Shown here: one piece after another, positions 33,647-46,963 of the stretch
Layout: the number at the start of each line of letters is the position of its first letter
Numbering within the stretch: the stretch's first letter is position 1
IMG/VR virus record: IMGVR_UViG_3300028844_002501
Location: 34,867-98,866 of that record
Source of the DNA: a virus
Strand: one strand, 5' to 3'
Length of the DNA: 64,000 nt
The notes under the pieces: generated by a model
What the model was told of the DNA's origin: nothing
Databases searched by the model: none
What the model saw: the letters and a program-made list of their open reading frames with translations, nothing else
Translations under genes and position numbers: made by a program

Positions 33647-36600
33647 ATGGCTGATATTAAAAACTTTGGAATCCGCGGAATCGGTTCTGATGTTCAGTTT
33701 GGTAAGTCGGGTGGCCGAGTCGTATATGATTCAGGTAATTCACTTTTCAAAGTAACAACAGACGGTTCAACGTTGGGCAACATGAATGTTGCAACTCCAA
33801 CTTCGGATAACCATGCGGCAAACAAGAGTTATGTTGACTCAGTTGCTTCAGGACTTGACGTTAAACAGTCAGTTCGTGCGGCTTCTACAGGTAACGTAAC
33901 TATAAGTGGTCCAGGCGCTTCAGTTGATGGTGTTTCACTATCATCGGGTGACCGTGTACTACTAAAGAACCAGTCTTCTGGTTCTGAAAACGGTATCTAT
34001 GTATGGAATGGTTCGGCGTCAGCAATGACACGTGCAACTGACATGGATGGAGCCGCTGAATTTGTTGGTTCATTCTTCTTTGTTGAAGAAGGTACAATAA
34101 ACTCAGACCAAGGCTTTGTATGTTCTACTGACGGTACAATTACTGTTGATACAACTGCAATCGCCTTTACACAATTCACTGGTACTGGTCAGTTAACAGC
34201 AGGTAATGGTTTATCTAAATCAGGTAACACATTCAATGTTAATGTTGATGATGTATATGTGAAAATTGATGGTTCAGACAATCTAACTGTTAAAGGTACT
34301 ACGACTACTGGTCAAGTACTTCGTTCAGACGGTTCAGGTGGCGTGGCTTATGGCGCGGTTAACTTGACATCTTCAGACGCAGTTACTGGTGCTTTACCAT
34401 TAACAAACGGTGGTTTAGGTGTTGATGCATCTGATGCCGCTGGTAAAATAACTGCTCGTTCAAACTTAGGTTTGGGCTCAATGGCTACTCAGGACGCTGG
34501 TTCTGTTGCTATTACAGGCGGTTCAGTAGACCTTTCAAGTGGTACTTTAACTCTAGCAAACGACCAAATCTCTGGTGACAAAATCTCTGGTGGTACAATT
34601 GACTCAGCGAACCTTTCAGGTGGCGCAGGCAAGACTATCTCTGGTTTCGATGTTACTATTGCATCTGGTAAAACACTAGACGTTGACGGTGCAGTTGATA
34701 TTGACGCTTCATCTGGTAACATGGACGGCGTTGCTATCGGTGGAACTACTTCAGCGGCTGGTACGTTTACTACTATGCAGTCTGACTCAGTTGATATTAA
34801 TGGTGGTGCTATTGATGGCTCAACTATTGGTGCTAACGTGGCGGCAGCAGGTACATTTACAAACGTAGATGCTACTGGTACAATCAAAACTGATACACTA
34901 GACAACTATTCTGGTACAAACATTGCGGTTAATGCCCCATTGGATGTTACTGGTGATGTTGGTGTAACTGGTTCAGTTACGGCTACTGTTGCAATGGTTT
35001 CTGACACAATTAGTGAAAGAACTGGCGCGGCTGGTGTTACTGTTGATGGCGTATTATTGAAAGATAATGGCGTTACTGCAACAGGAACTTCAAACCTAAC
35101 AACTGCAACAATCGGTACTGCTGATATTAACGGCGGTGCAGTAGATGGAACAATCATTGGTGCTAACTCATCAGCGGCTGGTACGTTTACAACAATGACT
35201 ACTGCAAGTGCAAGTATTACTGGTGGTTCTGTCTCAGGAACAAACGTTAACATGACTGGTCAAACTTTGACCCTTGCTAACGACCAACTTTCTGGTGACA
35301 AAATTGACGGTGGTACAATTAGTAACTTCGCTTCAACTGGTATTGATGATAATGCTGACCAAACAGTCCTAACTTTAGGTGCTGACGAGTCTGCTTCATT
35401 TGCCGGTGCAGTTACAGTTACTGGTGACTTAACAGTTAACGGTACTTTAACTTCAATCAATACTACTAACACTGAAATCACTGACAACACAATTGTTTTA
35501 AACAATGGTGAGTCTGGTGCTGGTGTTACTGAAGGTTCAGCAGGTATTACTATCGACCGTGGTACTGCGGATGACGCAACTTTCCTATGGAATGAAACTA
35601 CTGATAAGTTTGAATTCAAGGTTGGTTCTTCATTAGCAGACCTAACAGTGGCTAGCCTAGCAATGACTGGCATTGATGTAGATACTATCGGCGACCTTAG
35701 TGGTGGCGGTATTACTGTAAACGATGCTATTAACTTTGATGGTGCGGCAACGTTTGATACTACAATCGGTGTTGACACAATTAATGAACTAAGTTCAGGC
35801 GTTGGTGTTACTGTTGATTCAGTATTACTAAAAGACGGAAAAGTTACTGGTAGTTTAACTGCGGAAGCAGGCGACACAGTTGACGTTTCTGCGGCAACTC
35901 TAACTTTGGCTGATAACCAGATTTCTGGTGATAAAGTTGAAGGCGGAACAATTGCAGGCATTACAATTACTAACTTAGTGGCAACTTCGGCTGACATTAA
36001 TGGTGGTACTGTAGATGCGGCAGTAATTGGTGGCGCTACTTCGGCAGCGGCAACATTTACAACTATGGCTTCTGACTCGGTTAATATCGATGGCGGTGCT
36101 GTTGACGGAACAATCATTGGTGCTAATACATCAGCGGCTGGTACATTCTCTACTTTAACATCTGCTTCAGCAGATATTAATGGTGGTGCAGTTGACGGAA
36201 CTATCATTGGTGCGGCAGCATCAGCGGCTGGTACATTCACTACAATGACTTCTGATACAGTTGACATTAATGGTGGTGCTATCGACGGCGTAACATTGTC
36301 TTCATCTTCAGTAAATATTGATGGTGGTGCAGTAGACGGTACAGTAATTGGTGCAAATTCATCAGCGGCTGGTACTTTCTCAACATTGACATCAGCATCT
36401 GCGGCCCTTACAGGCGGTACTGCTACTGGCATGACAACTGTTACAGCAACAAACCTAAACTCAGGCAATGCGACAATTACTGGTGGTTCAATCTCTGGTA
36501 CTTCAATCGACTTGACTGGTCAGACCCTAACACTAGGTAATGACTCAATTTCAGGTGACGTAATTCACAACGGTACTATTTCTGGTGCATCATTGGCAGG

Positions 36601-40496: not shown

Positions 40497-40907
40497 ATGG
40501 CAAGAATACACGGAGCCGCATCGGCAAGTGAAGCAGTTTCAGGAAATCTTAACTTTTACACAATGTATGTAACTGAGAAAGTAAACGCAGTTCCAGGAGT
40601 GGATATTGATGCTACTGGTGATATATTAGACCAAACACAGCAAAACTTAGATGATATTGTAAATATTATATCATTAGTTGCACAACCTATCATTATGAAT
40701 GCTCCGGTTCAAGTATCACTTGGTGGTGTTGCTCCAACACTAACAGGCAATGGTTATGCTTTTAAATTTGCTGTAGAGCATGGACAAGTTTTTGAAAGAG
40801 GAGGCGATAATGTCTCAATCTTAAAAGAAATATTCTTTGGTACAACAATTGACGGAGTTACATTAGAACCCGCAAATGTAGAATTTGTAATGTCAGATAT
40901 ACTTTAA
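40497..40907 (+). CDS. Unknown 136-aa protein at end of fibre array
   Basis: A 136-aa protein with TTGGAGAT before ATG. It begins MARIHGAASASEAVSGNLNF and has a central hydrophobic segment (DIVNIISLVAQPIIM) followed by beta-like sequence ending EFVMSDIL. No family recognised. A private late promoter and a terminator suggest a virion or fibre-accessory protein. Confidence 0.7.
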   Translation: MARIHGAASASEAVSGNLNFYTMYVTEKVNAVPGVDIDATGDILDQTQQNLDDIVNIISLVAQPIIMNAPVQVSLGGVAPTLTGNGYAFKFAVEHGQVFERGGDNVSILKEIFFGTTIDGVTLEPANVEFVMSDIL

Positions 40908-40930: not shown

Positions 40931-40960
40931 AAAAAGGGAACCGAAAGGCTCCCTTTTTTT
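40931..40960. terminator. Bidirectional terminator: 136-aa gene (+) and RNA C (-)
   Basis: AAAAAGGGA and TCCCTTTTT form the outer stem, with an inner CC-GAAA-GG hairpin. T7 follows on the plus strand; TTTTTCATTTTAAAT follows on the minus strand, ending candidate RNA C. Confidence 0.88.
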
Positions 40961-41180
40961 ATATAAAGTAAAATAGGTAGGACTTGGTTACACCTACAAG
41001 CACGGACCGAAATACCATTTCTAAACCGTACAACCTAACCCCGAAAGTGACTTCGATGTGACTCCCTCCGTTTTCCGGGTAAAGCCTGGGTACCACCCCT
41101 GGTTAGTCAAGTTCGACTCTTTTGGTAGGAGCCTCTTCCTTGCACTATTAACAAAAGTTAATTAGACTTTTGCTACTTAT
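40935..41180 (-). ncRNA. Candidate noncoding RNA C (about 245 nt)
   Basis: On the minus strand a consensus promoter and an intrinsic terminator bracket about 245 nt with no reading frame worth calling. Hairpins include CAAAAGT/ACTTTTG near 41151-41173, AGTC/GACT near 41105-41120, GGGT/ACCC near 41090, a nested ACGG-GAAAT/ATTTC-CCGT arm (about 41005-41035) and GTAGG/CCTAC near 40977-40997. CTAACC and GGTTAG could close a long-range helix. The composition is GC-richer than the flanks, as expected for a structured RNA in an AT-rich genome. Function unknown. Confidence 0.6.
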
Positions 41181-41186
41181 AATACT

Positions 41187-41215
41187 AATATAGCACAAGT
41201 GATTCGCTTTGTCAA
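41187..41215 (-). promoter_or_regulatory. Sigma70-type promoter of candidate RNA C
   Basis: Minus strand: TTGACA (41215-41210), exactly 17 bp, TATATT (41192-41187). It begins 13 nt after the stop of the upstream gene. Confidence 0.8.
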
Positions 41216-41228
41216 CAACTTTTTTTAA

Positions 41229-41927
41229 TTATTTGAATATTTTTTTGATAGTTGAGCAGAAGTTGTTCCCTTTCGGCTCAGTAGGTAATGAATTCTCTTC
41301 TATCCATTCAGGAAACTTCTCAAACAGTGTTTTCCACTGAATCATTTCATTATATAAATCTACTATTCTTTTTAGATGCTCAGTGGTGTTTGGATAGTTA
41401 TGTTCAGTTTTCAATTTATTGACTCTTTGTTTACATTCATTCAAATCTGCCAAATCACGGTCAACTGCTACATTTATCTTTTCAAAAGATTCAGCATCTT
41501 TAAATTTGTTAATTAAGAATATGTGATGCTTATTCTTTGGCTTGCCATCATAAAGAAACATAATCTCTTGTAAATCATAATATAATGCTTTGACTGGATT
41601 AATACTTTCTCTGTATCTTTTCATTATTTCTTCGATAGCAAATTCTGAACCTTCAGTAGATAAGTTTTCGAGTACACTTATAGCCAGTATATTAATACGC
41701 TGGCTACTTGCGGATAATGCTTTCTTTGATTCTTCTTTGACTTTCGCAATCACAATGTCAACAAGACGTGCTTCGGTAACATCTAAATCTCTCTTTAGAT
41801 ATTCTACATGTCCTGGACTCGAATGAATGATTGTTCTTCTTAGGCTATCTGAAACTCTGTCACCTTTAAGAACTTTTTTACAGTCACGGATGAATCTTTG
41901 TCTTTCTAAATTAATAATATGATTCAC
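41229..41927 (-). CDS. Unknown 232-aa helical protein
   Basis: A 232-aa charged, helical protein with a GTG start preceded by GAGGAG. It contains LERQRFIRDCKKVLKG at the start, long Lys/Glu-rich helices in the middle and a basic C-terminus (STIKKIFK). No motif or family is recognised. A weak late-like CCTAAATAA lies about 30-40 nt upstream of the start. It lies downstream of the Nudix gene and upstream of RNA C on the same strand. Confidence 0.65.
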   Translation of the reverse strand: MNHIINLERQRFIRDCKKVLKGDRVSDSLRRTIIHSSPGHVEYLKRDLDVTEARLVDIVIAKVKEESKKALSASSQRINILAISVLENLSTEGSEFAIEEIMKRYRESINPVKALYYDLQEIMFLYDGKPKNKHHIFLINKFKDAESFEKINVAVDRDLADLNECKQRVNKLKTEHNYPNTTEHLKRIVDLYNEMIQWKTLFEKFPEWIEENSLPTEPKGNNFCSTIKKIFK

Positions 41928-41980: not shown

Positions 41981-42418
41981 TCAAAGTGACGATATAATAT
42001 CTTTTATAATTTTTAATTTCTTTTTTCGAAACAATGTACGTCTTGTTCCAGGATGTAGTGGTTTGGGTATATAATCTGCTTCTACCCATGTATATCCACC
42101 AGATTCATAATTCAATGTTGGTATAAATTCATTTTCTACTAGTACTACAAAAGAGTAGTAACTGAACTCTGAATTTCGTGTATGATATTGGTCTAGGGGA
42201 TATATTTTAACAACATCATCTTCAATATTTAAATCGATTTCTTCGGATAGTTCACGTAATAGGGCTTGTGCTATATTTTCATTTTCTTCAACTTTACCAC
42301 CAAAGAATGCCCAGTTTCTAGGAAACGAACCTTCTATTGTTCTTTGTTGAAGAAGTAGTCTATGAGTGTCTTTAGCGATGATGCAACCACCAGTCGCTCT
42401 AATCTTTGATACTTTCAT
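41981..42418 (-). CDS. Nudix hydrolase
   Basis: A 145-aa Nudix pyrophosphohydrolase. The complete Nudix box G-x5-E-x7-RELSEE is at residues 41-60 (GKVEENENIAQALLRELSEE), supplying the metal-binding glutamates. The ATG at 42418 overlaps the gp15 stop in TAATG, and the family normally begins just before such a KIRATGGCII strand, so the start is preferred over the in-frame codon 30 nt upstream. The substrate cannot be told; phage Nudix enzymes act on nucleotides such as dGTP analogues, NADH or mRNA caps. It is expressed with the neck genes. Confidence 0.88.
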   Translation of the reverse strand: MKVSKIRATGGCIIAKDTHRLLLQQRTIEGSFPRNWAFFGGKVEENENIAQALLRELSEEIDLNIEDDVVKIYPLDQYHTRNSEFSYYSFVVLVENEFIPTLNYESGGYTWVEADYIPKPLHPGTRRTLFRKKKLKIIKDIISSL

Positions 42419-43794
42419 TACGGAGTCGTTACTAATTCTAGCCTCCAATAACCACCTTCATATATTCCTTGATATGTATCAGTCCATTCACCCTTTTCAA
42501 ACTTGAATTGTTGTGTTGTGAATGTATTTTGTACATACTCTCGTGTAGAATTAGAACTAGCATCGAAACTTTTTACCCATTCTGTGCCATTATATTCTAT
42601 GATGTCATTAGCAGAAACATCAATGCCCCATACACTACTACTATCAGCCTTATTCAATGTTAAATATCGTTGACCCATTGCGACATTAGGAATATTATTA
42701 AATCCTGGCTTTGCTGTAGAGGCATTAATAATTCTGTCTACGGCAGTCACAGTGTTTGTTGGTAGAGTGTCAGTGTCAATTGTAAATGCAAGTGTATCTA
42801 CTGTGCCAGTAGACGATAATGTTCCGATAACATCAGCATTAAGGTCTTCTATTTCACCATGATATTTTAATCTAAGCCTTGATACACCAGAATCTAGTGT
42901 TCCGTAATTCTTAAGAACGGTGTCCCATGAAATACTAGCATCATAATTTCCATTTGCATATGGTTTAGCAAATACGTCTGAACCATCTTGGTATATTTTT
43001 AATGCATAGTTATCTGGTGTAACGATTACACTCGATTGTGCATTTAAATCTGCAAAAAACTCAAAGGCATCTGGGTCATAATCAATGCTATCTAAATCTG
43101 AATATGTATAAATGTTATTGATAATATTTCTAATTGTATTTTGTCTTGTTACTTGTGCTGGTGGATTAATCCAAACAGGGATTTGGAATATCATTGTTGC
43201 AATATCAATTTGGTCTTCAATGCCTGCAGGTATTCCTCTGCTTGTCCACTGTAAGTCAGTCATTTCTACTGTAGTGATTGTTGTCCAATCTATTGGATTA
43301 TCGTTATGTTGAATTTCTAATGCTGGATTAAATAGTACTAATATTTGTTCAAGTAGTTGAAGTTTTTGGTCAGTGTTTGAAGTCCAAATATCAACTTGCA
43401 TATTAAGTAAGTATGGAACTGGCATTAATCGTTTTACACTATATTTCTGTCCAGGTTCGCTAGTATAAGCATTTGTAGTAGAATCAAATGCTCTTTCATT
43501 AACACTTACAGCATCATTGAAAAATGGCTCTTGTAGTCTTTGTCTATCTGGTTGTAAACTTTGTACCCAACATGCAATAAATGGGGCAGAGGATACTACA
43601 TTTTCAGAGTTGCCTTTAAGAATAGTTGCCGCCATACGAGATACATCTCCATACCTTGAAGGAACTCGAATATAATAATCAGTTGTGCCATCGTTCATTT
43701 TTCTTCCAGTTTTAACTGTGAAGCCACTGAACATTCTTACAAACTGTAAAATGTATCTTCTAATCTGATTGTCATAGAAATGATTTTGTGCCAT
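42418..43794 (-). CDS. gp15: Tail sheath stabiliser/completion protein gp15
   Basis: A 458-aa protein whose N-terminal part matches T4 gp15, the hexameric ring that caps the finished tail and joins it to the neck. Matching features are FYDNQIRRYILQFVRMFSGF with YYIRVPSRYGD at the start, PYLLNMQVDIWTSNTDQKLQLLEQIL and LFNPALEIQ in the middle, and a WTSRGIP region near residue 180. T4 gp15 is 272 aa; the extra roughly 180 residues here are a beta-rich C-terminal extension. It lies directly downstream of gp14. Confidence 0.82.
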   Translation of the reverse strand: MAQNHFYDNQIRRYILQFVRMFSGFTVKTGRKMNDGTTDYYIRVPSRYGDVSRMAATILKGNSENVVSSAPFIACWVQSLQPDRQRLQEPFFNDAVSVNERAFDSTTNAYTSEPGQKYSVKRLMPVPYLLNMQVDIWTSNTDQKLQLLEQILVLFNPALEIQHNDNPIDWTTITTVEMTDLQWTSRGIPAGIEDQIDIATMIFQIPVWINPPAQVTRQNTIRNIINNIYTYSDLDSIDYDPDAFEFFADLNAQSSVIVTPDNYALKIYQDGSDVFAKPYANGNYDASISWDTVLKNYGTLDSGVSRLRLKYHGEIEDLNADVIGTLSSTGTVDTLAFTIDTDTLPTNTVTAVDRIINASTAKPGFNNIPNVAMGQRYLTLNKADSSSVWGIDVSANDIIEYNGTEWVKSFDASSNSTREYVQNTFTTQQFKFEKGEWTDTYQGIYEGGYWRLELVTTP

Positions 43795-45614: not shown

Positions 45615-45643
45615 TTGACAAAATGACCAATCTCACTTATAAT
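45615..45643 (+). promoter_or_regulatory. Full-consensus sigma70 promoter
   Basis: TTGACA (45615-45620), 17 bp, TATAAT (45638-45643): a perfect consensus, 30-40 nt upstream of the next gene. Confidence 0.88.
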
Positions 45644-45679: not shown

Positions 45680-46963
45680 GTGACAATGAAGACAATGATA
45701 AGAAAAAAGAAAAAAACAAAATCATCTGGATATTCTGACGAATCCTTTATCGGTTTAGAGCCTGATTGGAAAGGCTCAGAAAAGTGGAATGCTGAACAAT
45801 ATTATAGAGAACGTGCTAGAACACCATATTGGTATAGTTACTACTACAAATCTAAAGATTATATTCCTTGGGTTGTTGATTGGATGAAAGCCAATGATTA
45901 CACTAAAGAAGATATTAAGTCATATAAGGCAGCCGAAGACTGGAGAACTAAGAGTACTCTTGCTGGATATGTTAGAGCATTGACTAAGGGTATGCCTGAA
46001 AACCACGACGGTCTTACAGAATACTTCAAAACACTTCCTGGAATTACAGCGACACATATGTCTGATGCTTCTGTATCAGTTAGAAAAGAATTAGAGATTA
46101 TCATAGAAGCAGGAAGTAAAATTAAGGCGGAGAAAAAAGAAGAACAAGAAATTGTTTCTACTAAGTATAAGCCATCTATACAGCAACTTCTGTTCAATAA
46201 ATCTTTAGAAATGTCAGATGAAATTGAGGACTTTATTGAACAGTTTGATGGTTCAGCGTCAATGTTGACAAAATTTGACCCACAGAGAATGCTATTGATT
46301 GTTGGTGCTAAACCAAATCACGCTAAGATAATTGCATCTATATACAAGCCTCAGTTTGATGATTTCTCAGAACTTGTAAATCCTCCTAGTACTAAAAAAA
46401 TGAATGAAACTGAGAAAGATTTGCACGAACAACTTAAAGAGGGATATTCTCATCTATCTAAAGATGCCATAAAGAATCAGTTTAAGATGTACAAGACTAT
46501 TATGGATGCTTGTGATAACATCGTATTAAAAGGTAAAGTGACAAGAAAGCCTCGCAAGAAGAAGATAATAAGTGCTGAAAAACAAGTGAAGAACTTCAAG
46601 TATCTTGACCACCATTCAGAAACAAAATCAATTAGTGTCAATCCAGCAGACTTGGTAGGGGCAAATATTGCCATAGTATATAATTCTAAGACAAGAAAAC
46701 TAGGAGTATATCACGCATCAAATGTTGACCCGATGGGACTAAAGAGAGAGGGCTCAGGATTGAGTGTCAAAGGCACTACTATTCAAGGATTTGATGAAGA
46801 AAAAAGTGTATGTAAGACACTTAGAAAGCCAATAGAACAATTAGCAACGTTTAAGAAGGTAGCAAAACGCTCATTAAACAAAGAATTTGATGCTATCAAT
46901 AGTGTTGAAGTTAAAATGAATGGTAGATTTAATGCCCATAGCCTGATTATCAAAGTTTTTTGA
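45680..46963 (+). CDS. Unknown basic 427-aa protein
   Basis: A 427-aa Lys-rich protein. The first 20 residues are very basic (MIRKKKKTKSS). Then come Trp/Tyr-rich (RARTPYWYSYYYKSKDYIPW) and helical stretches, and a beta-rich C-terminal half (VGANIAIVYNSKTRKLGVYH). The start may be GTG 45680 or ATG 45686 or 45692 after AAGGATGAGAG. The family is not recognised by name. A perfect sigma70 promoter implies early, strong expression, unlike the virion genes on either side. A DNA- or RNA-binding role fits the charge but is speculation. Confidence 0.7.
   Translation: MTMKTMIRKKKKTKSSGYSDESFIGLEPDWKGSEKWNAEQYYRERARTPYWYSYYYKSKDYIPWVVDWMKANDYTKEDIKSYKAAEDWRTKSTLAGYVRALTKGMPENHDGLTEYFKTLPGITATHMSDASVSVRKELEIIIEAGSKIKAEKKEEQEIVSTKYKPSIQQLLFNKSLEMSDEIEDFIEQFDGSASMLTKFDPQRMLLIVGAKPNHAKIIASIYKPQFDDFSELVNPPSTKKMNETEKDLHEQLKEGYSHLSKDAIKNQFKMYKTIMDACDNIVLKGKVTRKPRKKKIISAEKQVKNFKYLDHHSETKSISVNPADLVGANIAIVYNSKTRKLGVYHASNVDPMGLKREGSGLSVKGTTIQGFDEEKSVCKTLRKPIEQLATFKKVAKRSLNKEFDAINSVEVKMNGRFNAHSLIIKVF

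Follow-up and report, generated by a model that had tools for sequence, protein, structure and literature searches.

A divergent manA-family RNA with its own promoter and terminator in a viral genome, probably encoded as a free-standing RNA gene

The window analysed here is a whole stretch of 64,000 nucleotides (positions 34,867 to 98,866) of the IMG/VR virus record IMGVR_UViG_3300028844_002501, a 98.9-kb record that may be a fragment of a larger genome. Its region of interest lies between an upstream gene and a convergent gene (40497-40907, 136 aa), neither of which gave a match in Pfam or PHROG; the features of the region are collected in Table 1. The original prediction had placed a promoter of the form TTGACA-17-TATATT on the minus strand, and it is indeed present there, agreeing with the consensus at 11 of 12 positions and carrying an extended -10 (TGn). 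At the other end lies a predicted terminator with a stem of 12 pairs and a 4-nt loop, in a layout that would function on either strand. The proposal that the RNA shares this terminator with a convergent fibre gene holds for the bidirectional terminator, whereas the word 'fibre' was an inference from a neighbouring gene and found no counterpart in Pfam or PHROG. Judged by these signals, a start near 41180 and an end near 40931-40927 are likely for the transcript, which gives about 250 nt in place of the 245 nt first suggested. The enrichment in G+C is borne out (44.7% in the RNA against 36.7% in the window and approximately 0.24-0.34 in the other long intergenic gaps), as is the absence of a notable reading frame: coding potential within the RNA went no further than one 45-codon GTG ORF, and a protein-coding reading of the stretch was dropped.

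Elsewhere in the window we noted a perfect TTGACA-17-TATAAT promoter (45615-45643, plus strand) ahead of a 427-aa ORF at 45680, and three long intergenic stretches (12889-13338, 62700-63050 and 63489-64000; 351-512 nt, G+C 0.31-0.34) without an Rfam match. A minus-strand gene at 42418-43794 encodes a gp15-like tail sheath stabiliser, whose nearest annotated relatives belong to Pseudomonas jumbo phages of the PA5oct type (38%) and not to cyanophages.

Table 1. Features of the RNA locus in window coordinates
Feature	Position	Strand	Basis or remarks
Sigma-70-type promoter, extended -10 (TGn)	41187..41215	-	Near-fixed distance in essentially all relatives too
Transcript start and 5' leader AUAAGUAG	41173..41180	-	Inferred from spacing to the -10 box
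5' strand of terminal helix, AAGUA	41178-41174	-	Minimum-energy fold; covariation among relatives
manA-family RNA core (RF01745, model 1-192)	40967..41172	-	43-sequence covarying alignment
P0, 5' hairpin CAAAAG..CUUUUG	41151..41172	-	6 of 8 tested pairs with double changes, 71% of cells paired, variable register
P1 5' strand, closing helix (partner 40976-40973)	41145..41148	-	100% of cells paired, 1 of 4 pairs with double changes
P2 (41142-41139 with 41111-41108) and P3 (41133-41129 with 41119-41115)	41108..41142	-	Alignment
P4-closed domain, CUAACC/GGUUAG (41106-41101 with 41040-41035), containing P5, P6 and P7	41035..41106	-	5 of 6 P4 pairs with double changes
Kissing loops, GUGGUA (41096-41091) with P7 loop (41052-41045)	41045..41096	-	Covariation
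P8 (41031-41028 with 41003-41000) and P9 (40997-40993 with 40981-40977)	40977..41031	-	7 of 9 pairs with double changes
3' strand of terminal helix, UACUU	40966..40970	-	Joins both transcript ends; fold and permutation
Intrinsic terminator, bidirectional, common to RNA and convergent gene	40931..40958	-	Kept in relatives without the RNA
Upstream gene, 232 aa, separate from the RNA gene	41229..41927	-	Relatives carry the gene with and without the RNA behind
Present/absent unit: promoter and RNA without terminator	40966..41217	-	Alignment with empty sites L013 and L015

An Rfam search (release 15, E computed for the window against the library) identified the region as manA RNA (RF01745), with a match over the full length of the model of 56.7 bits (E = 8e-12); a covariance-model search of this kind had been proposed along with the original prediction. 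The gathering score of the family is 55.2 and is exceeded by a margin of just 1.5 bits, and membership is further supported by the covarying structure and the loop-loop contact described below. The manA RNA dates from a 2010 description based on marine metagenomes, cyanophages and two gammaproteobacterial copies, in which it was classed as cis-regulatory and a probable riboswitch and placed in the 5' UTRs of genes concerned with sugars, nucleotides, chaperones and photosynthesis (Weinberg 2010, PMC2864571); the family was corrected in Rfam 14 (PMC7779021), and its Rfam type is Cis-reg. The family is already known, and membership in a described family catalogued as cis-regulatory was information not available to the original prediction.

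Relatives were gathered from 80 viral loci with genes like the upstream gene, from 120 further stretches containing a 16-base core pattern, and from another 120 stretches containing a second core pattern for the cyanophage type. A profile search then yielded 67 distinct cores of a pelagic type and 108 of a cyanophage type, or about 175 distinct relatives, where both labels denote sequence types coined in this analysis and not hosts. Carriers among isolates are Mosig EXVC030M, P-SSM2, P-SSM4 and P-HM2. In searches of 33 and 50 records the Rfam model detected manA at E <= 0.001 in 8 and 36, respectively, and above the gathering score in only 7 and 10; the window copy falls in a divergent branch largely missed by the current cut-off, which many copies of its type do not reach.

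A 54-pair structure was evaluated on an alignment of 43 sequences, with shuffles and slid partners as controls. In this alignment 94% of cells are paired and 34 of the 54 pairs change on both sides, with 374 cells carrying double-sided changes against 110 in the shuffles and 49-87 in the slid controls. This is the covariation in related phages that the original prediction had proposed to look for, and the long-range CTAACC/GGTTAG helix it had singled out corresponds to P4, in which five of six pairs covary among the 43 relatives. P2 and P3 enclose an invariant internal loop, GAAGA/GAA. That the locus is a chance G+C-rich stretch between convergent genes, a reading with which the folding energy by itself is compatible (a modest z = -2.4 against dinucleotide shuffles), is refuted by the covariation and, given also the Rfam match and the 175 or so distinct homologues, deserves practically no weight.

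Two further contacts, tertiary or long-range, also covary. The kissing loop forms at least three Watson-Crick pairs in 41 of the 43 relatives, which realize it as GGUA/UACC, UGU/ACA, UGC/GCA or UAU/AUA. Outside the Rfam model, the first bases of the transcript pair with the last bases before the terminator in a terminal helix, which the window RNA forms as AAGUA/UACUU in its minimum-energy fold and which occurs elsewhere as AUAAGCAA/UUGCUUAU, AUAAGUAA/UUACUUAU, AAUGC/GCAUU and AAUAUGC/GCAUAUU. The permutations used here keep shared ancestry, and their outcomes (0 of 5000 reaching the observed kissing-loop mean, with 17 distinct loop pairs, and 0 of 500 with swapped partners matching leader to tail as well as observed) are to be read as indications from several compensated types, not as clean probabilities. 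In the 2010 figure of manA a pseudoknot carries a question mark (PMC2864571), and by our own reading it is the GUGGU/ACC contact found here. A T-box-like GGUGGUACC had been considered as a tRNA-binding element and is explained instead by the kissing loop. As a separate observation, RNA arms appear to have been exchanged as blocks between lineages in a recombination-like manner, one core occurring with new hairpin combinations (alignment columns 88-140 and 143-178).

A sigma-70-like promoter matching at least 10 of 12 consensus positions is found close ahead of the RNA in 63 of 67 pelagic-type and 97 of 108 cyanophage-type copies, compared with 1.2-1.3% of random windows of the same contigs. 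In the pelagic type the -10 box nearly always ends 39-41 nt ahead of a conserved AGUG, and cyanophage-type copies have 5' hairpins of different lengths. The exceptions comprise four pelagic-type copies with a TTGC-type -35 and cyanophage-type copies that mostly have TATAAA for TATAAT; only two copies (L370 and L318) lack any promoter, and these lie directly behind a tRNA. In many copies of the L260-L379 set, the terminator-like hairpin of the upstream gene includes the manA -35 box (GAGGGTTGACACCCTCTTTTTTT), a single element that may both terminate the preceding transcript and initiate the following one. The distinction between a leader and a free RNA cannot be drawn from a promoter by itself, but it can be drawn from the 3' end.

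In the window the RNA is followed, behind the terminator, by the convergent gene and not by a same-strand gene of which it could be the 5' UTR. For the pelagic type (n = 66), a terminator stands within 110 nt in 46 copies (control 3.2%), and the remainder have a TAAATA motif before the next ORF (15 of the 20 copies without a terminator), an ORF within 60 nt (4) or none of these (1). The terminators begin 5-12 nt behind the RNA in 41 of 45 cases, show 30 different sequences in their arms, and in 30 of 45 have TAAATA within the next 60 nt, versus 4% of random windows; we take this motif to be a T4-type late promoter. Pairing of terminator arms with the RNA, as an antiterminator would need, came to 5.40 bp for own arms and 5.40 bp for swapped arms across the 45 relatives. 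Because own arms pair no better than swapped ones, the pelagic-type terminators are unlike the expression platforms of riboswitches.

The 3' contexts of the cyanophage type (n = 107) are more varied, with 23 terminators by scan, 18 late-promoter motifs, 7 tRNAs, 44 ORFs within 60 nt with no intervening terminator or late-promoter motif, and 15 others. Some 15 further copies have a branched AGACC..GGTCT hairpin, part of which would add to the terminators found by the scan, and these hairpins are spread over several of the classes. A conserved branched hairpin, AGACCUAAGAUGCAACU..AGU.GGGCAGAUGGUCU, was seen 3-11 nt behind manA, often with a T run after it, at 23 cyanophage-type loci (e.g. L274, L308, L310, L316 and L358); it occurs 25 times among all loci collected, 23 of them right behind manA, and had no Rfam match at the gathering score in the scanned loci.

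These contexts bear on whether the RNA acts in cis, as a riboswitch-like leader controlling the next gene, as the Rfam type and the 5' UTR placement in Weinberg 2010 (PMC2864571) would have it, which we consider unlikely for the window copy. Such a leader would agree with the 44 cyanophage-type and the Mosig-like copies directly before an ORF (a rubrerythrin gene of the Mosig phage begins approximately 17 nt behind the RNA, as expected of a 5' UTR element), and with the commonest downstream proteins, which resemble gp32 and talC. On the other hand, a terminator separates the window RNA from the next gene, which is convergent, relatives have different convergent genes, no antiterminator pairing links the terminator arms to the RNA, and several copies are directly flanked by tRNAs; the downstream proteins fall into 42 clusters, which fit a free RNA better than one regulon, although they are still compatible with a riboswitch. 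A riboswitch too would start at a promoter and could precede a terminator, and neighbours are less telling in compact phage genomes than in bacteria. Control in cis may still apply to those copies that stand directly before an ORF, i.e. 4 of 66 in the pelagic and 44 of 107 in the cyanophage type.

A convergent next gene is present in the window and in L002, L003, L006, L009 and L019, amounting to three different genes, with a neighbour of the same kind as in the window in L002 and L003 and others in L006, L009 and L019. The RNA of the window points at the 3' end of its convergent gene, and on this geometry, which applies to the window locus only, it might act as a switch on antisense transcription by letting read-through of the terminator run against that gene. 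We regard this as highly improbable, in view of the strong 12-pair terminator, of which a similar one is found in relatives without the RNA, the next genes of most relatives, which are not convergent, and the missing antiterminator.

Two relatives (L013 and L015) keep the upstream gene and a similar terminator and are devoid of the promoter and the RNA, with a clean edge on both sides; because they retain gene and terminator, the unit whose presence varies at the window locus is the promoter together with the RNA. This comparison also speaks to the idea that the RNA belongs to the upstream gene, as a structured 3' UTR or a processing element. Read-through into it would be possible in that no terminator lies between the stop codon of that gene (41229) and the RNA. 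This reading is nonetheless quite improbable: a near-consensus promoter stands between gene and RNA, relatives keep the gene and lose promoter and RNA together, elsewhere the RNA follows other genes, and the upstream gene of many cyanophage copies has a terminator of its own, overlapping the promoter's -35 box.

In isolates, manA is found behind pstS in P-SSM4, regA in P-SSM2 and a phycoerythrobilin gene in P-HM2. In S-CREM1, where the RNA begins 1 nt behind tRNA-Leu, its other end reaches 1 nt into the start of tRNA-Asn; the RNA of S-SSM7 is directly adjacent to tRNA-Gly, and S-SSM7 and six more cyanophage-type copies have a tRNA within 14 nt behind. At seven pelagic-type loci a phage tmRNA lies 1.5-2.6 kb upstream on the same strand. 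tmRNA genes were noted in the marine phage contigs L094, L114, L117, L119, L124, L179, L185 and L199, with tags such as ANFTEYALAA and GNENFALAA; none was found in the record to which the window belongs. The proximity to tRNAs and tmRNA gives weak hints at translation, concerning a minority of copies and perhaps reflecting mere gene order.

Under strict filters manA was found in none of 274 sampled Shewanella-class genomes, a count that came with a silent positive control and is not proof of absence, and in 1 of 194 sampled cyanobacterial genomes. The latter is a Prochlorococcus single-cell contig, and the 8 kb around its RNA match, in part, only cyanophages and marine phages in the phage set searched. 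A carrier assigned to Nonlabens xiamenensis (L390, NZ_RMVE01000006.1) shares 99% identity with cyanophage P-TIM40 across the 8 kb compared and looks like contamination. Apart from the genomes sampled here, the 2010 paper mentions gammaproteobacterial copies, reportedly from Photobacterium. The bacterial matches that we inspected look like phage DNA, with no independent copy seen in the sampled genomes.

Taken with its sequence signals, the window feature is probably a whole RNA gene, encoding a structured, free-standing member of the manA family that acts in trans. The candidate noncoding RNA with its own promoter and terminator, as originally predicted, is supported by strongly covarying homologues, a promoter at a near-constant distance in essentially every copy and a terminator after most copies of its type, and its own promoter and terminator are what a free-standing small RNA gene would present. 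Action in trans is favoured because nothing regulable follows in cis at the window locus, and because, across relatives, what bounds the RNA is a promoter or tRNA on its 5' side and, in many cases, a terminator, late-promoter motif or tRNA on its 3' side. The comparison of about 175 relatives indicates that manA often has the layout of an independent RNA gene, and what is new here is this context, namely an apparent layout as a free-standing gene at the window locus and in most copies of its type. Within our partial coverage of the literature, no paper treating manA as free-standing was found.

We envisage that the host RNA polymerase would use the sigma-70 promoter, with a start site a few bases ahead of the 5' hairpin, and that the RNA would fold, as the covariation suggests, into a closing helix, several arms, the kissing loop and a terminal helix between its two ends. 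Transcription would stop at the terminator some ten bases past that helix, releasing a free molecule of about 250 nt, presumably made early in infection, that may bind a host or phage partner. The translation machinery as that partner is a first guess and no more, taken from the tRNA and tmRNA proximity in part of the family. More broadly, we would give even chances to the proposition that the whole manA family consists of noncoding RNAs that act in trans and are widespread among marine T4-like and related phages, and is not made up of riboswitches; such RNAs would be transcribed early from their own promoters or excised from tRNA arrays, and would target a conserved host process, possibly translation.

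Since 2010 manA has been listed as cis-regulatory and a probable riboswitch, and if it is free-standing, a search for a ligand ahead of sugar genes would be misdirected. A frequent structured RNA of ocean viruses would then also be a candidate tool for taking over SAR11 and cyanobacterial cells, and the isolates Mosig EXVC030M, P-SSM2, P-SSM4 and P-HM2 make the free-standing reading testable in laboratory hosts.

Among known systems, 'RNA C' and 'RNA D' of the T4 tRNA cluster are small stable phage RNAs encoded with tRNAs, and their likeness to manA is one of genomic context only. GOLLD and ROOL work as RNAs in their own right and, unlike manA, are much larger and belong to different families; PMC12286853 presents them as large structured RNAs of bacteria and phages. 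The S-CREM1 ncRNA (PMC9964418, OP535465) is of the manA family (96.6 bits) and was annotated as cis-regulatory (PMC9964418), and unlike the window copy it sits inside a tRNA array with no gap to the flanking tRNAs. With manA as described (RF01745, PMC2864571) the window RNA shares the full-length model match, the same arms, the loop-loop contact and the occurrence in marine phages. It differs from typical manA in being divergent, near the family cut-off and without a gene in cis, and from the manA of cyanophages in its phage lineage, whose gp15 is nearest (38%) to that of Pseudomonas jumbo phages of the PA5oct type. Compared with the Rfam model, the sequence signals outside it, i.e. promoter, terminator and terminal helix, would delimit the whole transcript.
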